This document shows, in pieces, positions 23,559 to 59,721 of a stretch of 64,000 nt of DNA. Position numbers and translations under genes: made by a program. How positions within the stretch are numbered: position 1 is the first letter of the stretch; every line of letters starts with the position of its first letter. This DNA comes from Pedobacter sp. Hv1 (GTDB lineage: Bacteria; Bacteroidota; Bacteroidia; Sphingobacteriales; Sphingobacteriaceae), in the NCBI RefSeq assembly GCF_001412215.1, contig NZ_LLWP01000001.1, positions 434,001 to 498,000 of the forward strand, given 5' to 3'. The notes below the pieces were generated by a model, which ran no database searches, was not told where the DNA came from, and worked only from the letters and a program-made list of their open reading frames with translations.

Positions 23559-23990
23559 TTATTTTATATTTAAAATCATTTCGTAATGTGGCCCAATACC
23601 AGCTATCTCAAATTCATCAGAAGCAAGTTCAAAGCCTAGTTTCTTGTAGAATTCAATTGCTGAGGATCTTGCATTGCACCAAATATATTCGGCATTTGTT
23701 TTATCAATATACTCAATTGCAAATTGAACCAATTTTGTACCGTAACCTTTTCCTTTAAATCGGTCGTCGCTTGCCATTCCACGCAGTTGATAACCCAATT
23801 CTTTTCGATCTGCGTAATTTTTAGGAAAAAAAGAGCCGATACAGGCAATTTCCTCATTTTCATAAAACGCCAAATGAAAGGCACCATCTACTTGATCGGT
23901 TGGGAGCACACATTCTTTAAGTGGCTGCCCATTTCTTAATATTTTACTTCTGAGCGGCAAAGCAAGCTCAAACGGAATAAACTTAACCAT
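23559..23990 (-). CDS. GNAT family N-acetyltransferase
   Basis: The 143-residue protein has the acetyl-CoA-binding loop DRFKGKGYGTKLVQFA (R/Q-x-x-G-x-G/A) and the C-terminal FYKKLGFE motif of the GNAT fold. The substrate is unknown. It lies between gap and pgk, and its ATG at 23990 overlaps the gap stop by 8 nt (ATGGTTAA). An in-frame start seven codons earlier is possible but would lie further inside gap. Its insertion between two glycolytic genes implies co-expression, not necessarily a glycolytic role. Confidence 0.85.
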   Translation of the reverse strand: MVKFIPFELALPLRSKILRNGQPLKECVLPTDQVDGAFHLAFYENEEIACIGSFFPKNYADRKELGYQLRGMASDDRFKGKGYGTKLVQFAIEYIDKTNAEYIWCNARSSAIEFYKKLGFELASDEFEIAGIGPHYEMILNIK

Positions 23991-25033: not shown

Positions 25034-26170
25034 TTAATTTATTCGAGAGCGTTTTTCGCTGCTAAGTGTATCTTTCAGCACCACATCTACAATCCTATAT
25101 TTAGGATCATCTCTTTTGCCGAGAATGTACGTCACATAAGCATTCACTATCACACAAACACCTATTAACAAGGTAATTAAAAAGAAGTTACCCAAATTTT
25201 GCATAGACACCGCAAACAAAATCATCAATAGGTTAAACACCCCTAAAGTGAGTACAATTTGATAGGAATTAAAGCCCAAACGCTGCAAGCGATGGTGGAT
25301 ATGATTGCGATCGCCCTTAAATGGCGATTGACGGTGCAGGATACGGATAAAAAATATGCGTAGCGAATCAAATATCGGAACCAACAATACAGCTACTGCT
25401 ATTGATGGTGCTGAATAAAAATATGGCGAAGAGGATGAACCAACCTTATTTAACTCAATAAACTTGATAGCCAATACCACAGATACCAAACCAATTATTA
25501 AAGCCCCTGTATCTCCCATAAATATTTTTGCCGGGGTGTAGTTAAAAACCAAAAAGCCACATATTGCACCAAACATGGCAAAAGCAATAAAGGCATAGGG
25601 CAATGCTTCTGCCAAAGCAAAAAATACCCCAAAACTTAAGGTCGCAATTGCACCCAATGTACCGGCAAGTCCATCAACTCCATCAATGAGGTTAAAGGCG
25701 TTATTCACAAAAATAATTACCACAATAGAAAATAAACTACCCCAAAAGATATTCACTTCCCATAAAAAAAACACGCCATACAAACTAGTTAGCCTAAACC
25801 CTCCTAAAACAACCAAGATTACAGACACTACCAATTGCAATAAAAATTTTGTTCCGGGAGACACACCATACAAATCGTCTTTTAAGCCCAAGCCAAAAAG
25901 AATAATACAAGAAGTAATTAAAAAATTGGCCTGTTGGTAACTAACAGTAGTAGCAAACAATAAAATGGTAATGGTAAAACTGCAGAAAATAGCCACACCA
26001 CCCAATCTCGAAATATTGATGCGATGAGATTTACGATGACTATCTGATTGATCGAAAAGACGGTACTTAATTGCCGTTTGGATAATAGAAGGGATACCAG
26101 CTACCGACAAAAAAAAAGCCAAGCCAACAATTGCAATATAATAAATCAGGTGCCAAGGGAGAATGCCCAC
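25034..26170 (-). CDS. WecA-like polyprenyl-phosphate sugar-1-phosphate transferase
   Basis: The 378-residue membrane protein belongs to the MraY/WecA family. These enzymes transfer an N-acetylhexosamine-1-phosphate to undecaprenyl phosphate and so start glycan synthesis. It shows about ten helices, the motif LGLKDDLYGVSP (about 95-106), NAFNLIDGVDGLAG (about 156-169), GDTGALIIG, and the cytoplasmic HIHHRLQRLG histidine motif near residue 290. The start is GTG (26168-26170). No other initiating transferase is visible in the polysaccharide locus, so this is the likely first enzyme of that pathway, although it is read on the opposite strand. Confidence 0.88.
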   Translation of the reverse strand: MGILPWHLIYYIAIVGLAFFLSVAGIPSIIQTAIKYRLFDQSDSHRKSHRINISRLGGVAIFCSFTITILLFATTVSYQQANFLITSCIILFGLGLKDDLYGVSPGTKFLLQLVVSVILVVLGGFRLTSLYGVFFLWEVNIFWGSLFSIVVIIFVNNAFNLIDGVDGLAGTLGAIATLSFGVFFALAEALPYAFIAFAMFGAICGFLVFNYTPAKIFMGDTGALIIGLVSVVLAIKFIELNKVGSSSSPYFYSAPSIAVAVLLVPIFDSLRIFFIRILHRQSPFKGDRNHIHHRLQRLGFNSYQIVLTLGVFNLLMILFAVSMQNLGNFFLITLLIGVCVIVNAYVTYILGKRDDPKYRIVDVVLKDTLSSEKRSRIN

Positions 26171-26192
26171 AATAAAATGTTTAGTTTGTACT

Positions 26193-26200
26193 CAAAAATA
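26193..26200 (-). promoter_or_regulatory. -7 promoter box of the WecA-like gene
   Basis: TATTTTTG on the minus strand is an exact TAnnTTTG, 22 bases before the GTG start. The predicted leader is short, under 20 nt. Confidence 0.45.
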
Positions 26201-26235
26201 GTATTAAAATTTACAGATTGTTAATTAAATTAATT

Positions 26236-26982
26236 TTAATGTAAAAACTGCGTTAATTTGCTCATTTTCTTTAATAATAAGGTAAATAATGGAAAAGGAA
26301 GGCGGTTGACTTTAAGGGCTTTAAGGTCATTAACCAAAGCATGGTAACGGTGTTTCATAGAGGCGTTGCTCATCCCACCTATCCTCATGTTTACGATCAA
26401 TTGGTCTATAAATACTGCCTTAATCTGGCACTGGTATAAAAACCTAAGCATCAACTCATAATCTGCTGCAGTTCCAAAATCTAAAGAGTAGTATTCAAAT
26501 TTTTTAAAAAGTGATTTCTTTAAATAAAGTGTTGGATGTGCAGGCATCCATCCCATTTCAATATCTTTTTGTGTAAAGGGTTTAGATACCCATTTTCTTA
26601 CGATTGCATTAGCTCGATGCGGATTAATATAGTTTAGATTTCCATATACCCCATCCGCATCAAATTTTTCGAATTGGGCTACAATGTTGGCAATCACATC
26701 AGCCGAGGCCAACATATCATCCGCATTTAAAATCCCAATAATTTCTCCTGTGGCCATATCAATACCCTTATTCAAGGCATCGTACATTCCTTTATCCTTT
26801 TCAGATACAAATTTTGTAATCTTAGCGCTATACTTCTCCAATATGGAAAGTGTAGAATCTGTTGAAGCGCCATCAATTACAATATACTCTAGATCATGGT
26901 AAGTTTGACCGATTACAGATTCTATACAATCTGCTAAATACTTTTCTCCATTATAAACTACGGTAATTAAACTTACTTTCAT
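26236..26982 (-). CDS. GT2 family glycosyltransferase
   Basis: The 248-residue protein starts KVSLITVVYNGEKYLADC. It has the GT-A features VIDGASTDSTL (D near residue 38) and GEIIGILNADD (the DxD-like motif near residue 85). The central HPTLYLKKS segment and GTAADYELMLRFL near residue 170 are typical of small WcaA-like transferases. It has no membrane domain. It lies 65 bp upstream of the WecA-like gene on the same strand and so may add the second sugar, but the donor and acceptor are unknown. Confidence 0.85.
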   Translation of the reverse strand: MKVSLITVVYNGEKYLADCIESVIGQTYHDLEYIVIDGASTDSTLSILEKYSAKITKFVSEKDKGMYDALNKGIDMATGEIIGILNADDMLASADVIANIVAQFEKFDADGVYGNLNYINPHRANAIVRKWVSKPFTQKDIEMGWMPAHPTLYLKKSLFKKFEYYSLDFGTAADYELMLRFLYQCQIKAVFIDQLIVNMRIGGMSNASMKHRYHALVNDLKALKVNRLPFPLFTLLLKKMSKLTQFLH

Positions 26983-27079
26983 TGTGATAACGCTATTGAC
27001 TAATTGTGATACGCTTTAATTGAAAACCTTCTAAAGATAAATAAAGCAAAAACATAATCTGTATAAAGCACACAAAAGG

Positions 27080-27511
27080 TTAAATTCTTTTGCTGATAAC
27101 AGCCACCCCAAAGCCACCTATCAAAATTAACAAACCCCAAGTATATCCGTCAAGTGGACAATCATAGGTAAGTGTATAGGTAATCGTTTGACCAAGGTTC
27201 CTCACCTCACCACCAGAAACGTAAGTAACGCCTTGTATCGCACATTGTGCCCCATAGGTTGGGTTATTGGCAAAATATGGGCAATTGTTATAGCTGGTAT
27301 ACCAAGAATTTAAAAAATCCTTTTTAGGTGTAGTATAAGTTGGATATTCTGGCACATACCATTGACTAACAGGATAAGGCTGCACACCATTGTAACCAGT
27401 ATAGAGAAAATCGTCGTTACCAAACTTACAACCAGTAACGGTTTCTGCAAAACACTGATAAGACCCCATCAAAAAGGCAAACGAAAGAATAAGATATTTT
27501 ATAGCCCTCAT
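27080..27511 (-). CDS. Small secreted protein with PID-CTERM-like sorting signal (1)
   Basis: The 143-residue protein has a signal peptide (1-22), then TVTGC and DDFLYTGY, a Tyr- and Cys-rich middle part, and the C-terminal sorting unit CPLDGY (PLD at 119-121). A membrane helix, GLLILIGGFGVAV, and the basic end SKRI follow. This tripartite C-terminus is the layout recognised by exosortases, and an exosortase gene lies at 59119. An in-frame TTG six codons upstream is possible, but the ATG at 27511 fits the signal peptide better. It is the first of three paralogues. Function of the mature, about 95-residue domain is unknown. Confidence 0.85.
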   Translation of the reverse strand: MRAIKYLILSFAFLMGSYQCFAETVTGCKFGNDDFLYTGYNGVQPYPVSQWYVPEYPTYTTPKKDFLNSWYTSYNNCPYFANNPTYGAQCAIQGVTYVSGGEVRNLGQTITYTLTYDCPLDGYTWGLLILIGGFGVAVISKRI

Positions 27512-27741
27512 GTATAGTCGATTGATCAAATAGATCGCAATTGATATGCCAACAATATTTAATTATAAATTAATATTAACGCACCAAATTTTATTATAAG
27601 TAAAAATTAGGCCTCAAAATTATTGTTGTATGTAATAAGGGATTAGATACAGTAAACAAATATACGTTTAATCGGGCGTGAAAATCAAATTAAGAAATTA
27701 ATAATTTTCAGTCCCATCAGGTACTGTAATCTGAAATAATA

Positions 27742-28254
27742 TTAGGCTAAGCTATATTTTCTCATGAAATAAAAACCAAGGCCACCTGCTGCTATTAAAG
27801 CCACCCAGATGTAATCGTCTAAAGGCAATTCTGCAGGTGGAGTTACCGAACATTTGCCTGGCTTATTGTAAGTAAAAGAGACATAATCGCCTTCTCTAAT
27901 TACAGAGCCACCTAAAGAAGTTGAAATTACACAAGCTCCAGAAGCACTAGAAGTGATTTCGTTTTCTGCTGGAATAGGTACGTTTTCACTGCCATTCCAA
28001 TAAGAACTTGCTGGATAAATATTGATATAACCACATCTATATCCTTGGTACTGATTATGCCCTGAACCATAATAGATTGGAATATAGTGATTAGTTCCGT
28101 AGAATTTTTTGCTTGGGTTACTTGGGTGATACGGAGAGGCATCGCCCAAATAATCTGTATACACCTTATCTTCTACTCTACAACCGGTACCGGAAGTTTG
28201 AGCGAAAGTGCTTAAGGGTATGAATATTAGAAGTAGGAGTTTTAAAAATTTCAC
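27742..28254 (-). CDS. Small secreted protein with PID-CTERM-like sorting signal (2)
   Basis: This is the longest of the three paralogues (170 residues) and starts with GTG. It has a signal peptide (1-19, ending STFAQ), then GTGC and DKVYTDY matching the N-terminal motif of its neighbours. A Tyr-, Ser- and Pro-rich central part with four cysteines follows. The C-terminal signal is ELPLDDY (PLD at 144-146), the helix IWVALIAAGGLGFYF and the end MRKYSLA. Unlike the other two, it has no Cys directly before the PxD. No known domain is recognised. A substrate role for the exosortase at 59119 is inferred. Confidence 0.85.
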   Translation of the reverse strand: MKFLKLLLLIFIPLSTFAQTSGTGCRVEDKVYTDYLGDASPYHPSNPSKKFYGTNHYIPIYYGSGHNQYQGYRCGYINIYPASSYWNGSENVPIPAENEITSSASGACVISTSLGGSVIREGDYVSFTYNKPGKCSVTPPAELPLDDYIWVALIAAGGLGFYFMRKYSLA

Positions 28255-28722
28255 TTAAGGATCTTGCTTTTTGTACAATACACTTAAGGCAACATAGGTG
28301 CCATCAAACCCTAAAAGTATTAAATTAATGTCATAATCAAACATTTAGAGGACCTAATACTTGCTTAAAGATTAATATATCATAAAAATTACCTCGAGCT
28401 TTGTATAGTGATTAAGCTACTCTATATTGAAAATTTATTAAATCGTAGATATTTGGGGAAATAATTACCCGTTTGTCCCAAAAAGACCCCGTCGATAATT
28501 TAATAGAAATTTAGTAACAAATTAATTATCAGCATCAATCCGTTAATAAAACAACAAGAATAAGGTGACAGTTAAATATCAACGAATACCAAGCAGAGTT
28601 TCTAGAAAAAGAACGGCCAAAAATTAACCATTAAGAAAGTAATACAAGAGTTGTATAAAATCGTTGAAGAAATAAATTGTATGAATAAAATAAGACTAGT
28701 GGATTAATATATAGCTTGGCTG
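28255..28722. other. Intergenic region between two PID-CTERM-like genes; no intact gene seen
   Basis: This 468 bp gap has a conserved box at 28455-28468 (see separate entry). At about 28580-28712 the plus strand reads NEYQAEFLEKERPKINH in one frame and KKVIQELYKIVEEIN in the next. That could be a decayed gene end, but it is too short to identify. No terminator or RNA gene is evident. Confidence 0.4.
28455..28468 (-). promoter_or_regulatory. Conserved GTAATTATTTCCCC box upstream of PID-CTERM gene 2
   Basis: The plus strand reads GGGGAAATAATTAC. It differs at one of 14 positions from the box at 29294-29307. It lies about 200 bp upstream of the start of gene 2 on the minus strand, a distance similar to that of the second box from gene 3. 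It is a candidate binding site; the regulator is unknown. Confidence 0.4.
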
Positions 28723-29118
28723 TTAACCAAAGATCAATCCTTTACGAATAGCCAATACCCCAAGCCCGGCAACAGCCACCAAGATTAGACCCACATAATC
28801 ATCAATAGGACAGGCCATATAGTAGTATTCTTTCCCACTCTGGTAATACCAACCATTATTATCTGGATTAGTGGTACACTGTCTACATTGTGATTTAGTT
28901 CTTATTCTACAAACTCGATTATAAGTTGGGTTGCAATATATGCCTGTACCAGTTTCGTAAACTACAGGCGTTGTCTCGTAGGTATTTCCAGAAACATAAC
29001 CTGTATATAGATAACCCGTATCATCAGAAATACAGCCAGAAGCAGTCCAAGTAGCAAAACCTTTAAAGCTTAATAAACAGAAAAAGACAATCAGAATGGC
29101 CCCTTTGAACTTTAGCAT
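28723..29118 (-). CDS. Small secreted protein with PID-CTERM-like sorting signal (3)
   Basis: The 131-residue protein has a signal peptide (1-22), the shared motif ASGC followed by GYLYTGY, and a cysteine-rich centre (YCNPTYN, CRIRTKSQCRQC). The sorting unit is ACPIDDY (PID at 104-106), then the helix VGLILVAVAGLGVLAI and the basic end RKGLIFG. This is the textbook PID form of the signal. Six cysteines in about 80 mature residues suggest disulfides or metal binding outside the cell. It is the nearest of the three to the divergent polysaccharide export genes. Confidence 0.87.
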   Translation of the reverse strand: MLKFKGAILIVFFCLLSFKGFATWTASGCISDDTGYLYTGYVSGNTYETTPVVYETGTGIYCNPTYNRVCRIRTKSQCRQCTTNPDNNGWYYQSGKEYYYMACPIDDYVGLILVAVAGLGVLAIRKGLIFG

Positions 29119-29713
29119 ATTACAATTCTTATTTTTTTATATCGCTAGTCAACTAACATGCCCAACCAGAAATTTGTTGCGAAAATAAAAAAGAAAATCA
29201 AAAATCCCCCTTAAATAGGACGATATCCGCTTTTAACTTTAGTGATATTTATTTTCTTTACACAACATACATAAAGAACCCTTCCTTAAGTGGGGAAATA
29301 CTTACACATCAATCTACTGTATGAGGAAATATATACTCATTTTCGCCCTTGCATTAAATCAACATCCCATAACTCTCTTTAAATCAATATCAAGTGCATA
29401 GAAAACATCTTTGATCCAGAGAAAAAATGTACATTTTTCAGCAAATGGTTTCACCAAAATAAATTAGATGGCGTAACGCATAGTTTTACCTAAATAGTTA
29501 TCAACAATCAAGAATTAATCAACATTATTAAAAGCCCTTAAAACGTACTAATCTCACTATCAATTGCTTAAAAACAAGCGAAAAAACGCAATCTTCATAT
29601 TTTATAAAAGATTAAAATCTAACTTTTTTAATTACCATATTTTCAGCACCTTTAAGCTGAATTTTATTTTTTATTCGTAAATTAACCTATCTCTTACTTA
29701 GGAGCATCAAATC
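29119..29713. promoter_or_regulatory. 595 bp divergent regulatory region before the polysaccharide export operon
   Basis: No gene is visible. The region holds the box GGGGAAATACTTAC (29294-29307) and a degenerate second copy, GAGGAAATATATAC, 31 bp further on (29325-29338). It separates the minus-strand secreted-protein genes from the plus-strand export genes and so is the likely control point of the locus. A good Shine-Dalgarno sequence (TAGGAG) ends it, nine bases before the ATG at 29714. Confidence 0.5.
29294..29338. promoter_or_regulatory. Paired GGGGAAATAnTTAC-type boxes
   Basis: An intact copy (29294-29307) and a degenerate one (29325-29338, 11 of 14 matches) are spaced 31 bp apart, about three helical turns. 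The same word occurs at 28455. The position between divergent gene groups of one system suggests a shared regulator. No such regulator is encoded nearby apart from the NusG-like protein, which acts on RNA polymerase. Confidence 0.4.
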
Positions 29714-30523
29714 ATGCAAAAAGCAACTCTTCTCAAAAACCTTCTGTTTCTTTCCATCATAACCTTACTTCTTTCGGCATGTTCTGCCAGCAATGCACGT
29801 AGAAAAAAGACATTATTTAATTCGCCAACAGACAACGTAACCGACACCATTAAACACGTTTACGTAGTAAATGATCAAGGTTTGGGAGACATCTATTACC
29901 GTATAAAAGTAAATGATGTGATCGCTGTACGAAATTTACAAAACCGTGAGTTTGGTGCGGTAGGCACGGCATCAAGTGTGAGCCCTGGTGCTGGAGATTC
30001 CAATATGATTACCTATCCAGTAGACAATGATGGTACGGTAAATTTACCCGCCATTGGCAGAGTGTCAATTGTTGGCCTAACCAGAAAAGAAGCAACCATT
30101 AAATTGCAACAGATCTATGAGAAAGATCAATTGAAAAAACCAATTATCGAAGTTTCAATTGTAAATGTTAAAGTTACTTTACTTGGCGAATTTAGTAGTC
30201 AGGGCAATTACTTATTGGAAAGAGACAATACCAATCTGATTGAAATTATTGGTCAAGCTGGCGGCATTACAAAAGATGCAGACCCTAAAACATTGAAAAT
30301 TATCCGTGGCGATAAAAGCAGGCCCGAAACAATCTATGTAAATTTGAATGACATCAATAGCTTGGCTAGCAAAAAATTAATCCTACAGAACAATGATATT
30401 ATTGTAATACAACCTACTAAAAATATTGTTCTAAGTCAGAAATTACAAAGTTTCAATAATATTGTACAACCCTTATTAGTGGTGATTAACCTTGCTGTAC
30501 TAATATTTACCTTTACAAGATAA
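29714..30523 (+). CDS. Wza-like polysaccharide export lipoprotein
   Basis: The 269-residue protein starts with a lipoprotein signal, the lipobox LLLSACS giving Cys23. It has a Poly_export-type domain (DIYYRIKVNDVIAVR..., about 55-145) and a following SLBB-like domain (VTLLGEFSSQGNYLLERDN, about 155-210). A hydrophobic C-terminal segment, LLVVINLAVLIFTFTR, ends it. Such proteins form the outer-membrane or periplasmic exit of capsule and exopolysaccharide systems. It overlaps the next gene by one base (TAATG) and is preceded by a good ribosome-binding site. Confidence 0.92.
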   Translation: MQKATLLKNLLFLSIITLLLSACSASNARRKKTLFNSPTDNVTDTIKHVYVVNDQGLGDIYYRIKVNDVIAVRNLQNREFGAVGTASSVSPGAGDSNMITYPVDNDGTVNLPAIGRVSIVGLTRKEATIKLQQIYEKDQLKKPIIEVSIVNVKVTLLGEFSSQGNYLLERDNTNLIEIIGQAGGITKDADPKTLKIIRGDKSRPETIYVNLNDINSLASKKLILQNNDIIVIQPTKNIVLSQKLQSFNNIVQPLLVVINLAVLIFTFTR

Positions 30524-32934
30524 TGAGTAATTTAGAAACCGCCCCTAGTCCTAAGTCTGTTAGGCAGGACATAGATTTTTATAAGATATTTAAAGTTTTT
30601 TTTAGTCGCTGGTACTGGATTGCAGGCTGCGTGGTTATTGCACTGATTATTGCCAGGATAAATTTATTATATACCCCTCCTGTTTTTACTACTTCTGGGC
30701 AATTACAGTTAAAAGAAAATAACCCATCAATTTCTACTACACAAGGTATTGCTACACAATCTTACAGTTATACCGATAGAATCCAAGCAGAAGGGTACGT
30801 TATGCAAAGTAGCGAGGTATTATTAAACGCTATTTCCAATCTCGATTATAAAATCTCCTATTATAATAAAGGTAGGATTAGAAGTACAGAAACCTATCCT
30901 AATAAACCCTTTACTATAGAAATTGTAAAACAAGATTCAGTTAATTTTGGTAGGGCATTATATAATGTTGAGCCTTTAAACAATACCACTTTTTACCTTA
31001 CTTATACAGAAAACCCGAAAAGCCAAAAAAAGAAATATCATTATGGCCAGCTGATTGAAGAGGGAAATACGATTTTTAAAATCACCAGCCCGATTACTGG
31101 CCCTGGGCAATACAGCTTTAAGTTCAATAGTAAAATGGATTTTTTAGGCAGATCCATTATTTCCACAAGTGAAGCAGGAAGATTTACCAATGTAATGTCT
31201 GTAAATATTACAGATGGTAATCCTGTATTTGCTGCTGACTTTCTGAACGAAATTATGAAAGAATATGTCAAGTATGACATTGTTCAAAAAAGACGTTCAG
31301 CAAGGCAAATGGTACAGTTTATTGAAAAACAAATGGGCTTTTTGAAAAGAGAAGCGGATACAGCAGGTGCAAAATTGGCCAATTTCAAAAACAAAAACAA
31401 GATTGTTGACCTTAACAGCAATGCCCAAACCAATATTGCCAAATTGGGGCAGTTTGAAAGTCAGAAAATGGCTCTAGATATAGAAATGATTGGCATTAAT
31501 CAATTAGAAAACCAGGTAAGTTCTAATGCCGGTAAAATTGAAATGAATCTGGATATTGAAGGTAATATTAGTACTTTATTAGGCGGTTTAATTAGCCAAT
31601 ACAACACCCTTGTACTTGCAAGAGAAAACAAACTTCAACAGTTTCAGGCTTCATCTCAACTTGTTAAAGATATAGATGAACAAATAGGAGGCATCAGAAA
31701 TGTGATCCAAAGCAATATCAATTCATTAAAGCAAAGAAATCTAAAAACCTTAGCCCTCTTAAGTAGGCAAATTGTAGACGTTAACCAAACGCTTGATAAA
31801 ATTCCCAATAAAGAGAAAGATTTTATACAGTTTCAATCTAGTTTCGATGTAAATAATAAATATCTTTCACTTTTATCGGAGAAGAAATTAGAATCAGAGT
31901 TAAACGAATCGGCAGTAGTATCTGGTGCAGTAATTGTAAATCAGGCAACACCTCCTTCTTATGACTATCCGATATCTCCAGACAAACAAAAAGTTTATAC
32001 GTTTGCAGCTATGGTAGGTCTTGCCTGTGGTTTCGGACTAATTCTATTGGTACGTTTCCTAAATCCATATATTTACGATAAGGAGACTGTTGAAGCTTTA
32101 ACCAATACGCCTATTATTGGTGTAATTAGAAAATTCCCTGAATATATTGATAAAGACAATAGACAAGCCTTATCTCTGGCAAAACCAAAATCTGTTTTTG
32201 CCGAATCGGTACGTTCAGTGAGAACCAATCTGAGCTTTTTGGCCGCCAATAAAAAGAGTAAAACAATTTGCGTAACCTCTGAGGTTTCTGGAGAAGGAAA
32301 ATCGTTTGTTACCGTTAATTTAGCTGGTACACTTGCGCTTATCGATAAAAAAGTGGTATTAATTGCTGCCGATTTACGTAGATCTAAATTGCACAAGGTT
32401 TTTGGAAGCAATAATAAAATAGGTTTAAGTTCTTATTTATCTGGTCAAAAAACACTAGAAGAGGTAACCATGCATGATGAAGTGCACAATATAGACTTCA
32501 TTCCTTCTGGACCAGTACCTCCAAACCCTTCAGAGTTATTACATACAGAATCGATGAAAAAGCTATTGGAGATCTTGACACCTAAGTACGATTATGTATT
32601 GATAGATACAGCTCCGGTAGGTCTGGTTTCTGATGCTATTCCATTGATCCGTCAATCGGATGTGAACATATTTGTAATTAGATCTGGTAAGTCACAATTC
32701 AGAGCTGCTGCTATCCCTGAGAGGCTTTCTCGCGAGTATGGATTGAGCAATTGGGCTATTGTATTAAATGCATTTGGTGATGATGCGCTACACTCGAACT
32801 ACTATACTACGGATTATGCTCGTGGTGGTGGCAATAGCACTTATTATTACTCAGATTACTCTGGTTATGCAGGTTCTGGCTATTACGATGATCCGAAAAA
32901 ATGGTGGGAATTCTGGAAGAAAAAAGATAAATAG
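30523..32934 (+). CDS. Wzc-like chain-length regulator and BY-kinase
   Basis: This 803-residue protein fuses a Wzz domain (first helix about 30-46, periplasmic coiled coils about 250-470, second helix about 490-512) with a cytoplasmic tyrosine kinase. The kinase has Walker A SGEGKSFVTV (about 588-597), Walker A' LIAADLRRSK (about 611-620) and Walker B YVLIDTAP (about 690-697). The C-terminus is a tyrosine cluster (YYTTDYARGG..., STYYYSDYSG) for autophosphorylation. It controls polymer length and export with Wza. A cognate Wzb phosphatase is not in this window. Confidence 0.95.
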   Translation: MSNLETAPSPKSVRQDIDFYKIFKVFFSRWYWIAGCVVIALIIARINLLYTPPVFTTSGQLQLKENNPSISTTQGIATQSYSYTDRIQAEGYVMQSSEVLLNAISNLDYKISYYNKGRIRSTETYPNKPFTIEIVKQDSVNFGRALYNVEPLNNTTFYLTYTENPKSQKKKYHYGQLIEEGNTIFKITSPITGPGQYSFKFNSKMDFLGRSIISTSEAGRFTNVMSVNITDGNPVFAADFLNEIMKEYVKYDIVQKRRSARQMVQFIEKQMGFLKREADTAGAKLANFKNKNKIVDLNSNAQTNIAKLGQFESQKMALDIEMIGINQLENQVSSNAGKIEMNLDIEGNISTLLGGLISQYNTLVLARENKLQQFQASSQLVKDIDEQIGGIRNVIQSNINSLKQRNLKTLALLSRQIVDVNQTLDKIPNKEKDFIQFQSSFDVNNKYLSLLSEKKLESELNESAVVSGAVIVNQATPPSYDYPISPDKQKVYTFAAMVGLACGFGLILLVRFLNPYIYDKETVEALTNTPIIGVIRKFPEYIDKDNRQALSLAKPKSVFAESVRSVRTNLSFLAANKKSKTICVTSEVSGEGKSFVTVNLAGTLALIDKKVVLIAADLRRSKLHKVFGSNNKIGLSSYLSGQKTLEEVTMHDEVHNIDFIPSGPVPPNPSELLHTESMKKLLEILTPKYDYVLIDTAPVGLVSDAIPLIRQSDVNIFVIRSGKSQFRAAAIPERLSREYGLSNWAIVLNAFGDDALHSNYYTTDYARGGGNSTYYYSDYSGYAGSGYYDDPKKWWEFWKKKDK

Positions 32935-33025
32935 GTTTACATATTCATTGTTTAAACAAGATCACATCAAAGTTGTTTATAATAAGCATGCTTTTGCAAT
33001 GCATTTTATAATTTTTTAGCCTTTG

Positions 33026-33052
33026 AAGAATCTCTTTAAATTGGAGATTCTT
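33026..33052 (+). terminator. Hairpin in front of the NusG-like gene (attenuator or weak terminator)
   Basis: AAGAATCTC and GAGATTCTT form a nine-base perfect stem with a nine-base loop, 34 bp before the NusG-like gene and 90 bp after the Wzc stop. It has only a short T-tract (TTTG). It may attenuate transcription between the export genes and the rest of the locus, possibly relieved by the antiterminator encoded next. This role is inferred. Confidence 0.4.
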
Positions 33053-33086
33053 TGATTAAGGTAAGTGTTTAAAACTAGAACTAGAT

Positions 33087-33593
33087 ATGATAGACAATAC
33101 GTATAAATGGTATCCAATATATACGAGATCTCGTGCTGAAAAAAAAACACAAATTGAATTAAATAAAAAACAGATTATTTCTTATCTGCCTTTAAAAAAA
33201 ACGGTTAAACAATGGAGCGATCGTAAAAAGGTTATAGAAGAGCCCTTGCTCAAATCTTATCTTTTCATTTATATTTCTGCCAAAGAATATACAGAGGTAT
33301 TAACTACTCCGGGCATAAGTCGTTTCATATATTTTTCCGGAAAAATTGCTGCAATTCCCGATAAACAGTTAGAAGATTTAAAACTGTTATTGGCAAATGT
33401 AACTGATCTTGAGGTAATTGACTACGAAGTTTCTTTAGGAGAAAAAGTTTTAATTAAAGCTGGTCCCTTTAAGGGAATTGTAGCAGAATTAGTATCTTTA
33501 AAAAACAAAAAAGGAATAGTACTAAGGTTACAAAATTTGGGCTATTCGATTATGATTAATACTTCTTTGGCCTTTATAGAGCCAATTAGGTAA
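33087..33593 (+). CDS. UpxY-type NusG paralogue (transcription antiterminator)
   Basis: The 168-residue protein has a NusG N-terminal domain (WYPIYTRSRAEKK..., about 8-100) and a KOW domain (EKVLIKAGPFKGIVAELV, about 122-150). It is shorter and more diverged than housekeeping NusG. In Bacteroides such UpxY/LoaP-like proteins bind RNA polymerase and keep it reading through long capsule operons. Its position between the export genes and about 25 kb of biosynthesis genes in one direction fits that role. Confidence 0.9.
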   Translation: MIDNTYKWYPIYTRSRAEKKTQIELNKKQIISYLPLKKTVKQWSDRKKVIEEPLLKSYLFIYISAKEYTEVLTTPGISRFIYFSGKIAAIPDKQLEDLKLLLANVTDLEVIDYEVSLGEKVLIKAGPFKGIVAELVSLKNKKGIVLRLQNLGYSIMINTSLAFIEPIR

Positions 33594-53903: not shown

Positions 53904-55041
53904 GAAATTAGCAATTATATCTACCCACCCTATTCAATATTATGCCCCTATTTTTAGGCTTCTAGATAATAAAATGGATATTCAGGTTTTTTATACCAGG
54001 GGTGATGTACCGCAATATGACCATGGTTTTAAGAAAAACATTAGCTGGGATATTCCCTTAACAGATGGTTATACCTACGAGTTTTTAGAGAATACTGCAA
54101 AAGATAAAGGTAGTCATCATTTTAAGGGTATTATCAATCCAAATGCCATCACAAAGATTAATGATTTTAAGCCAGATGCTATTTTAATCTATGGTTGGGC
54201 TTATCAAAGTCATTTGAAAATAATGCGCCATTTTAAAGGTAAAATTCTGATTTATTTTAGAGGCGATTCTACTTTAATAGACCAACAACCTGGTTTTAAA
54301 AATATATTAAGAAGTATCTTTTTAAAATGGGTGTACCAACATATTGATACCGCCTTTTATGTTGGCACTGCAAATTATGCTTATTTCAAAAAATATGGTT
54401 TAAAGGAAAAACAATTGGTCTTTGCACCACATGCAATCGACAATACTCGTTTTTCTACCGATAGAAAAGACGAAGCCGATCAGCTTAGGGAAAAACTAAA
54501 CATTGATAAAGAGGATATTCTTATTTTGTTTGCGGGTAAATTGGAACCGAAAAAAGATCCAGAATTGTTATTAGATGCCTTTATTAAATTAAACAGTACA
54601 AACATTCACTTACTTTTTGTTGGCAATGGCGTACTAGAAGAACAGTTAAAAGCCAAGGTAAAAAATGATCACTTGGAAAATGTTCTTTTTATGGATTTTC
54701 AAAATCAAACACAAATGCCGGTCGTTTATCAAGCCTGTGATTTATTTTGCCTCCCCTCTAAAGGGCCAGGAGAAACTTGGGGTTTAGCTGTGAATGAAGC
54801 AATGGCTGCTGGCAAGGCCGTCTTGGTATCAGACAAAGTGGGTTGTGCATCTGATTTGGTCACAAACCATACCGGTGCTATTTTTAAAAGTAGAGATCTA
54901 GCAGATTTGTCACAAAAATTAATAGCTTTAACAAAAGATAAAACCATACTAAAAATCAATGGCCAAAATGCTTTCATTACTATCCAAAACTGGAGTTTTG
55001 AGCAGCAGATAAATGCCATTTCTAAATATGTTAACAGCTAG
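53896..55041 (+). CDS. GT4 family glycosyltransferase
   Basis: The 381-residue protein starts KKLAIISTHPIQYYAPIFRLL, an N-terminus common in GT4 enzymes of polysaccharide clusters. The donor domain has LFAGKLEPKKDPELLLDAF (about 210-228), LFVGNGVLEEQLKAKV and LPSKGPGETWGLAVNEAMAAGK with the EX7E motif. It begins inside the last codons of the FkbM gene and overlaps the Wzy-like gene. It is probably one of the enzymes specific to this type of exosortase locus, given its fixed position near the Wzy-like gene. Confidence 0.88.
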   Translation: MTKKLAIISTHPIQYYAPIFRLLDNKMDIQVFYTRGDVPQYDHGFKKNISWDIPLTDGYTYEFLENTAKDKGSHHFKGIINPNAITKINDFKPDAILIYGWAYQSHLKIMRHFKGKILIYFRGDSTLIDQQPGFKNILRSIFLKWVYQHIDTAFYVGTANYAYFKKYGLKEKQLVFAPHAIDNTRFSTDRKDEADQLREKLNIDKEDILILFAGKLEPKKDPELLLDAFIKLNSTNIHLLFVGNGVLEEQLKAKVKNDHLENVLFMDFQNQTQMPVVYQACDLFCLPSKGPGETWGLAVNEAMAAGKAVLVSDKVGCASDLVTNHTGAIFKSRDLADLSQKLIALTKDKTILKINGQNAFITIQNWSFEQQINAISKYVNS

Positions 55042-56485
55042 TACTCAAAACCAATCCAAGCAAAAAGTATTGATCTTGATCTATATTCCATGGATCATTT
55101 CTATCATTGTTCAAATAGATCCTATTGTTTCCTTTTTTGTAGCATGGTTAGGTTCATTTTTCATTTTTTATTGGACTTTATTTTCTAAAGTAAGATTTAT
55201 TCCTTTAGACCTGCCATTTACAAAACAGATCATGAGACCAATTGTGCTGGTTCAATTGATCTTTGCTGGGTTTATGTGCTGCACCTCCATTTTTTACTTT
55301 ATGGATCACCTGGGCTATGAGTATTTTAATAAAATAAGTTATTTGCCTTTTAGGGTAAATGAACAAACTTATGCCATTGCCAAATGCCAACGTTTATCTT
55401 TATTGGCCCATGCAGCATTGGTTACAGGAATGATTGTCCAGATTAAACAATACCCTATAATAAAGCACAAATTAAACCTCAACCTAGATTTTTTCCTCAT
55501 CTGGTTATGTGTAGCATGTTATATATTAGGCGGTGTTACATCCAGAATTTCGAGTATACATCAATTTTCTTATGGTTTAATCAATATTTCCATTACCTGT
55601 AGTGCATTGGTTTTGGTAAGAGGGCTGGTACAACGCAAAACAGGTTATATGATTTTTGGTGGTGGTTTATTTGTCTTTAACTTTTTAGCATCAACTCTTA
55701 CTGGTTACAAGGAAAGTATCATTATCAATGTGATCATTATTAGCTTTTTGCTCTACCCATATTACAAAAGAGTAATCCTCACCTTAGCCATTCCAACAGT
55801 TTACATTCTATTATATATTCTGCCAACTTTTGCCAATATTGTAAGATCGCAATCTTGGTCGGGACAAAAATCAGCCGCACAGGCAAGACAAGAAGCATTT
55901 GATGCCCTATTAACTAATGAAGCTCCTATAATTGAAGAAACCAACTGGACTTTTCTAACCAATAGGTTGAGTGAAATTAACATGTTTACCACTTTTGTTA
56001 AACATATTCCTAAAGAACATCCGTATTATGGATTAGAGATTGCAAAAAACTCTGTGCTCGCCATTATTCCAAGAGCACTTTGGCCCAAAAAGTTTGTAAC
56101 CGAGGCCATTTCAATGGAACGTGTATATGAAGCGGGGGTAGCCTATCAATCGTCTTCAGTTTCTGCTAAAACCAGACCAGTTGTAGACGGTTATGTGAGT
56201 GCTGGTTTAATTGGTGTATTTATTTCTATTTTTCTATATGGCTTGGTTACACAATGGATGAGCAATAAAGCAGAAGAGTTATTTGGAGGGTATGAATTAG
56301 GCTGTATTGTAATGTTTAATGCCATTTTCCAAAACTTATGGAGGGGCAATAACTTTGAGTTTTTGGTGAACAATATATTTTATGGGTATCTAGCCATGTT
56401 TGCCATCTATTGGATACTCAAAAGGTCGAATACCCTAACAGAATTAAATGTCTATAAAAATACTGCAGATAACAGCAGCATATAA
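55013..56485 (+). CDS. Wzy-like multi-pass membrane protein of an exosortase-linked locus
   Basis: The 490-residue protein has about twelve membrane helices and a large loop (about residues 285-345, from SQSWSGQKSAAQARQE to FVKHIPKEHPYYG), where polymerases of the Wzy type carry their catalytic arginine-rich loop. The shape is that of O-antigen/exopolysaccharide polymerases. I recall a family described as exosortase-associated Wzy-like in Bacteroidota; assignment to it is from memory and not checked. The start could also be the second ATG at 55028. The end overlaps the next gene by 38 nt. Confidence 0.75.
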   Translation: MPFLNMLTASTQNQSKQKVLILIYIPWIISIIVQIDPIVSFFVAWLGSFFIFYWTLFSKVRFIPLDLPFTKQIMRPIVLVQLIFAGFMCCTSIFYFMDHLGYEYFNKISYLPFRVNEQTYAIAKCQRLSLLAHAALVTGMIVQIKQYPIIKHKLNLNLDFFLIWLCVACYILGGVTSRISSIHQFSYGLINISITCSALVLVRGLVQRKTGYMIFGGGLFVFNFLASTLTGYKESIIINVIIISFLLYPYYKRVILTLAIPTVYILLYILPTFANIVRSQSWSGQKSAAQARQEAFDALLTNEAPIIEETNWTFLTNRLSEINMFTTFVKHIPKEHPYYGLEIAKNSVLAIIPRALWPKKFVTEAISMERVYEAGVAYQSSSVSAKTRPVVDGYVSAGLIGVFISIFLYGLVTQWMSNKAEELFGGYELGCIVMFNAIFQNLWRGNNFEFLVNNIFYGYLAMFAIYWILKRSNTLTELNVYKNTADNSSI

Positions 56486-59118: not shown

Positions 59119-59721
59119 ATGGAACAATCAATAGACGATAAAAAAAAGGCGAATAAAGCAGCTATCCTATTTGTGGTAAAGCTGTTGTTCTTTTATTTTC
59201 TGTTTAGCCAAGGAAATTTGTTTATGAATAGTGCCATGAGCGATGGTGGTAGATTTTATAATGAATTTCTTCAAAGCCATTTCAATTATATACAGCTCTT
59301 AAAATCTGCTTTGATTTTACCCGCCGTTTGGATCATTAAACTATTTGGTTTTTATGCTGTTTATAACCAAATGGATATTATGGTGGTTAATGGGCCATGG
59401 CTACGGATCAATTATGCTTGTTTAGGCCTTGGGGTAATGAGTTTTCTCGCTGCTTTTGTAATTGCATTTCCAGCAAAAATTAAAGCTAAACTTAAACTAT
59501 TTGTGATAGGCATTTTGATGATTTATTTATTAAACGTAGCCAGAATAGCTGCCTTGGGTGTATTGTTAGGGTTTTTCAAATCGCAAAGAAGTAATTTTAC
59601 TTACCACCATGAAATTTTCAATATCATTGTCTATATCTGTGTATTTGTACTGTTGTACTATTGGATAAAAAAGAATACAAAGTTGGTTGCTAAAAAAGAA
59701 ACAGAATCAAAAATTGAATAA
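59119..59721 (+). CDS. Exosortase family protein (Bacteroidota type)
   Basis: The 200-residue membrane protein has about six helices and the three catalytic residues of exosortases and archaeosortases in order: Cys101 in NYACLGLGVMSF, Arg142 in NVARIAALGV, and His163/His164 in TYHHEIFN. The enzyme cuts C-terminal sorting signals of exported proteins and probably joins them to another molecule. The likely substrates are the three PID-CTERM-like proteins at 27-29 kb. It is far smaller than proteobacterial exosortase A (about 500 residues with a fused C-terminal domain), as is usual for single-domain forms. I recall the name exosortase Y for one such family but have not checked it. Confidence 0.88.
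   Translation: MEQSIDDKKKANKAAILFVVKLLFFYFLFSQGNLFMNSAMSDGGRFYNEFLQSHFNYIQLLKSALILPAVWIIKLFGFYAVYNQMDIMVVNGPWLRINYACLGLGVMSFLAAFVIAFPAKIKAKLKLFVIGILMIYLLNVARIAALGVLLGFFKSQRSNFTYHHEIFNIIVYICVFVLLYYWIKKNTKLVAKKETESKIE

Follow-up and report, generated by a model that had tools for sequence, protein, structure and literature searches.

The genes of three small proteins, here termed P1, P2 and P3, lie in the window, the whole stretch of 64,000 nucleotides of the Pedobacter sp. Hv1 genome that was analyzed. As judged from sequence features and co-occurrence, these proteins belong to a family that is very probably the cargo of exosortase Y (XrtY), and their genes occupy a slot beside the exopolysaccharide (EPS) genes in which closely related species have almost completely different contents. 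We consider it reasonably probable that P1–P3 are XrtY-sorted, disulfide-bonded and swappable binding modules of the cell surface. The original prediction had described the three as diverged paralogues of one unrecognized domain; it did not mention an exosortase, the evenness of the cysteine counts or the turnover of array contents between species, and the family is much larger than its three proteins.

Candidate cargo of exosortase Y

P1, P2 and P3 each carry a signal peptide and end in P-[IL]-D-[DG]-Y, a helix and a Lys/Arg tail (Table 1). Together with a co-occurring exosortase, these are the attributes of an exosortase substrate in the broad sense. The signal peptides, here and in the collected set described below, were judged heuristically from a hydrophobic N-terminus and a site resembling those of signal peptidase I (SPI). 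XrtY is located at the end of the polysaccharide operon of the window and is the sole exosortase in this genome. Its translation reads CLG, NVAR and HHEIFN, corresponding to the Cys-x-Gly, Asn-x-x-Arg and His motifs of exosortases, the last of which has Gly where the XrtY of the window has Asn (PMC1569441). The XrtF model gives this protein 50 bits, against a cut-off of 90.

Table 1. Features of the window that bear on the P1–P3 family
Feature	Coordinates	Strand	Details
P1, family member	27080..27511	-	143 aa; 4 ectodomain Cys; start ATG (TTG at 27529 possible)
P1 N-terminal motif TGC...LYTGY	27392..27436	-	sequence and motif test
P1 C-terminal sorting signal CPLDGY + helix + SKRI	27083..27160	-	
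P2, family member	27742..28254	-	170 aa; 4 ectodomain Cys; start GTG; confident all-beta ectodomain model
P2 N-terminal motif VYTDY after TGC (TGC...VYTDY)	28150..28188	-	sequence and motif test
P2 C-terminal sorting signal LPLDDY + helix + MRKYSLA	27745..27828	-	
P3, family member	28723..29118	-	131 aa; 6 ectodomain Cys; start ATG
P3 N-terminal motif SGC...LYTGY	28996..29040	-	sequence and motif test
P3 C-terminal sorting signal CPIDDY + helix + IRK	28726..28812	-	
Variable slot between wecA/GT2 genes and wza	26983..29713	.	
wecA-like gene and GT2 glycosyltransferase	25034..26982	-	conserved slot border; GAPDH, pgk next at 23983, 22365
wza, wzc, upxY	29714..33593	+	start of exopolysaccharide operon; divergent slot border
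XrtY-associated Wzy-like protein	55013..56485	+	NF046084, 657 bits, cut-off 420
Exosortase XrtY	59119..59721	+	NF046083, 230.5 bits, cut-off 160; C-L-G, N-V-A-R, His motifs

Co-occurrence was assessed in 60 genomes of the genus with a family-profile threshold of E ≤ 1e-4, an XrtY of about 230 bits and more being counted as high-scoring. Family matches were present in 26 of the 26 genomes with a high-scoring XrtY versus four of the 34 others (Fisher p 4e-13, a value that ignores shared ancestry; the genomes are related and the counts are not independent). These 34 comprise 13 genomes with an XrtY at 113–200 bits, 20 without XrtY and one with a fragment. Among the four exceptions (G177, G180, G185 and G190), G180 and G185 are fragmented and the member in G177 lies near a contig end. 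The fourth is a real exception, since G190 is a complete genome without any exosortase that carries one intact member (L101:8213). In 24 of the 24 cases in which both are on the same contig, the array is found upstream of XrtY at a distance of 24–44 kb and in the opposite orientation.

Outside the genus, clear members were found in one neighbouring genus only (G001), where XrtY is present as well and one member is transcribed divergently from a wza-like gene; in a sample of 395 genomes of the phylum the family scored in this genus alone. No member was detectable in many XrtY genomes of other genera, some of them equally high-scoring, or in the low-scoring-XrtY genomes of this genus, and no targets were seen beside the low-scoring XrtY or beside XrtY in genus g14. 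XrtY therefore cannot depend on this family in general. The family is likely to be the first candidate cargo of this exosortase.

A second, lower-scoring type of XrtY occurs in the genus (L165–L168, L172, L191, L192; G105, G140, G197, G165) without detectable four-cysteine targets. Some XrtY matches (for example in G101, G120 and G002) are located in open frames of about 460–510 codons, which raises the possibility of a fusion of the exosortase with a further domain in these cases.

A variable slot beside the capsule genes

An array of 1–7 members lies between wza, which is divergent, and wecA/GAPDH/pgk in 29 fetched genomes as well as in the window; at least seven members of the genome of the window lie beyond the EPS locus. 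The same neighbours enclose only about 330–600 bases, without an array, in G165 and G105, which have a low-scoring XrtY. The wza of these two genomes is just 35–38% identical to that of the window, so that the EPS module differs too. Two deep types of wzc (about 52% versus 95% identity) were observed among species with near-identical wecA, which indicates that part of the EPS operon has been exchanged as well.

Replacement of the array was quantified in 25 species pairs in which both flanks share at least 80% DNA identity (mean 84%). The share of ectodomain-coding bases with any DNA match had a median of only 1% and a mean of 8.6%. Homology sets in again in the final 25–120 nt of the last gene in five pairs, in or close to the part that encodes the sorting signal; in six more pairs it does so immediately after the stop codon of that gene. 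Between close species the array proteins are mostly either unrecognizable or 92–98% identical, with some in between. Orthologs within lineages have dN/dS values of 0.01–0.24, including 0.10 for P1 and its closest ortholog, which corresponds to strong purifying selection. The genes are thus real and conserved, and the array varies because old lineages are gained, lost and exchanged; positive selection by point mutation was rejected on the same values.

Invertible promoters were also considered and rejected, as the array has no convincing inverted repeats, and promoter and terminator scans of the array remained at chance level. In many arrays the last gene (L094:8463 and others) has a near-constant sorting signal, CNLDDYSWTLGAAAGLFGIFVIRRRNK, and an ectodomain that varies by species. 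Members of the type GCLVG.RMYTR (L076:9792, L087:9037, L094:6352) are always oriented opposite to the rest of the array.

The fast replacement would fit partner-specific selection on binding modules, and matrix roles are also possible. In the latter case P1–P3 would be structural matrix or fibre proteins: XrtY would join Tyr/Gly-rich domains to each other or to polysaccharide, the array would be a strain-specific set of subunits, and variation would track the polysaccharide and not an antagonist. The position of the array in the EPS locus and the composition of the ectodomains (Tyr 8.8%, Gly 11.5%) agree with such a role, as does a statement quoted in PMC12188702 that PEP-CTERM proteins stabilize EPS–cell contact for floc formation. 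However, the sharing of related members spans both deep types of wzc at least once (L076 and L092, with 73% identity in the ectodomain and 52% in wzc), and arrays of one to seven genes with differing members are unlike an obligate subunit set. A structural role is conceivable but somewhat unlikely.

Framework and fold of the family

From fetched regions of Pedobacter genomes, 151 relatives of P1–P3 were gathered. The starting profile, built from five members of the own genome (P1–P3 and two more), matched tandem groups in many genomes of the genus; the alignment of the P2 group had no conserved stretch, and an alignment of the last genes served as the search query instead. Members were picked by signal peptide, C-terminal helix and a P-x-D-like motif, and GC was required only where these motifs were weaker. 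In the first pass, in which GC was not a criterion, it was present in 110 of 117 candidates, a count that is not fully independent because the profiles that chose the regions include GC. The resulting framework is G-C1-x-[VIL]...hydrophobic-Tyr at +7 to +10...C2...C3-x-[IVLA]...C4, followed by the sorting signal.

All four framework cysteines are present in P1, P2 and P3, the mature parts of which start with TVTGCKFGNDDFLYTGY, SGTGCRVEDKVYTDY and TASGCISDDTGYLYTGY, respectively. The mature start described in the original prediction, [ST]GC followed by (L)YT[GD]Y, was borne out in all three proteins, in the form [ST]GC and [LV]YT[GD]Y. Strict YT[GD]Y is uncommon in the family (five of 149 distinct relatives versus 0.2 in shuffles) and is a special case of a wider motif: hydrophobic-Tyr at +3 to +16 after C1 was found in 122 of 149 (30.5 ± 4.6 in shuffles) and hydrophobic-Tyr-Thr in 55 of 149 (3.4 ± 1.8 in shuffles). 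A cysteine close to P-x-D had been described for two of the three proteins; it directly precedes P-x-D in P1 and P3, and the count of two arises because C4 of P2 is located nine residues before P-L-D. Across the family, the sorting signal has the consensus C 75%, P 74%, [LI] 93%, D 99%, D 72% and Y 68%, then Arg/Lys, with basic residues after the helix. Gln is the +1 residue at 62 of 150 predicted signal peptidase sites, as is also reported for Bacteroidetes SPI substrates (PMC5837995).

The ectodomains contain four (n = 96), six (n = 49), eight (n = 4), five (n = 1) or two (n = 1) cysteines. The count is even in 150 of 151 members, with C1 of two members moved out of the signal peptide; before these reassignments it was even in 148 of 151 (p 4e-40 against 0.5, although related sequences are not independent draws). 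Other open reading frames divided into 61 even and 28 odd, a control of little use that probably holds missed members and non-genes. The sole two-cysteine member, L079:8204, retains C1 and C3 without C2 and C4, which hints at C1–C3 and C2–C4 pairing of the putative disulfides.

The ectodomains were compared by means of a profile from which the signal peptide, the sorting signal and the own genome had been excluded. This search found P2 at 1.1e-8 and P1 at 5.8e-7, with a weak value for P3 (0.032 versus 0.044 for the best of 200 shuffles). Profile–profile comparison gave E values of 8e-5 for P1/P2, 0.0028 for P1/P3 and 0.0072 for P2/P3, versus 0.13, 0.15 and 0.47, respectively, in reversed controls. 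The AlphaFold2 model of the P2 ectodomain is all-beta (pLDDT 87.6), and in that of P1 (pLDDT 69.3) the strands follow the order seen in P2 with respect to GC, YT, C3 and C4. Of the proposed single domain, the part that stands is one family that is absent from libraries and has an N-terminal motif and a four-cysteine framework in common. A common fold of P1 and P2 is suggested by agreement of their models in main strand order; the models cover these two proteins, that of P2 being confident and that of P1 compatible at lower confidence.

The proteins could instead have only the two sorting tags in common, with unrelated middles that converged on cysteine content. The profile–profile signal of the three ortholog groups does come mostly from the N-terminal 20–40 residues (the hairpin region), and the score of P3 is barely above shuffles. 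Against this, the members have a common cysteine framework in which C3-x-[IVLA] occurs in 131 of 149 versus 71 expected, an alignment of P1 with the remaining members extends over 66 columns (E 4.8e-5 versus 0.42 reversed), and the two models concur. We regard unrelated middles as improbable.

Assignment to a known CTERM, Pfam or PHROG family was rejected, as no match was obtained: P1–P3 pass no cut-off in Pfam and NCBIfam, the family has no match in Pfam, NCBIfam or PHROG, and none of 41 members scored above the cut-off of a named CTERM model. PFE-CTERM (NCBIfam NF050011) gave a weak hit to the tail of P1 (13.1 bits, cut-off 24; one of 41 members). No relative of the P1 or P2 models was found in the PDB by either sequence or fold, with 51–58 chains re-aligned, which is no proof of a new fold. 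The P2 model has no match in a viral library, and a phage or plasmid origin was rejected because P2 lacks a match in such searches.

It is very improbable that P1–P3 are polymorphic toxins or bacteriocins set free by the exosortase. Replacement of a coding region beside a conserved segment resembles toxin-tip swapping (cf. PMC3482391), but there is no open reading frame of ≥60 aa between P1, P2 and P3, and hence no immunity partner; in addition, no toxin domain or family was matched and the architecture is identical in every member. Least probable of all are lipoproteins, in which the GC cysteine would carry the lipid at position +1 and the helix at the C-terminus would be incidental: there is a small Gly-Cys near the signal peptide and a loose lipobox match in 17 of 151, but C1 lies 3–11 residues downstream of the SPI-like site, the even count including C1 (150 of 151) means that C1 has a partner and the sorting signal is near-invariant, and this reading was rejected on the SPI-like site and the cysteine parity.

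Proposed mechanism and known systems

Under the favoured reading as XrtY-sorted binding modules, P1–P3 would leave the cytoplasm through Sec, lose their signal peptides to signal peptidase I and fold in the periplasm into a small all-beta domain stabilized by two or three disulfides. Their C-terminal helix and Lys/Arg tail would keep the domain anchored in the inner membrane. XrtY would then cleave at or close to [C]-P-[IL]-D-[DN]-Y and pass the domain to an acceptor, by analogy with the exosortase model (PMC1569441). The domain might then reach the surface with exopolysaccharide exported through Wza/Wzc. On the cell surface or in the polysaccharide layer, the ectodomains could serve as exchangeable modules for binding, in contact with matrix, partner cells, phages or predators. 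Whole ectodomain genes in the fixed slot would be swapped as different partners are selected for, the sorting signal and flanks remaining constant. A more far-reaching proposal, which we offer tentatively and think rather unlikely, is that the slot is a recognition locus. In it, ancient and individually conserved lineages of a novel disulfide-bonded beta domain would be exchanged between Pedobacter species at one site and anchored by one exosortase via a constant sorting signal. As exchangeable receptors or tags for the recognition of self/non-self, phages or partners, they would resemble variable-receptor or antigen loci.

Environmental bacteria commonly carry exosortases. With the present family, XrtY gains a concrete and testable candidate cargo family and signal. 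A fixed slot with replaced contents and conserved borders marks where closely related soil bacteria differ at their surface, and such differences bear on phage sensitivity, biofilm identity and kin recognition.

Surface proteins sorted by exosortases are known as a kind. Neither the domain nor its signal or the organization of the slot, nor any XrtY target family or signal, was found in the libraries and literature searched, the latter omitting most subscription journals. Exosortase Y and its Wzy partner are described by NF046083 and NF046084, and the proteins of the window pass both cut-offs. Like XrtY, XrtF of Flavobacterium johnsoniae is a Bacteroidota exosortase, although of a different family; its loss strongly reduces biofilm and also reduces surface colonization (PMC10936215), which by analogy fits a surface role for the present family. 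The targets of XrtF were stated to be unreported in a 2025 paper (PMC12188702). The family also resembles the PEP-CTERM/EpsH system (Haft 2006, PMC1569441), which likewise combines a signal peptide with a C-terminal motif, helix and basic tail, diverse ectodomains without known homologues, an exosortase adjoining EPS genes and large intergenic regions between genes. However, the motif is P-E-P there and [C]-P-[IL]-D-[DN]-Y here, with no CTERM model above cut-off, and the present family is set apart by one common, putatively disulfide-bonded framework and by tandem genes in a fixed slot with replaced content.
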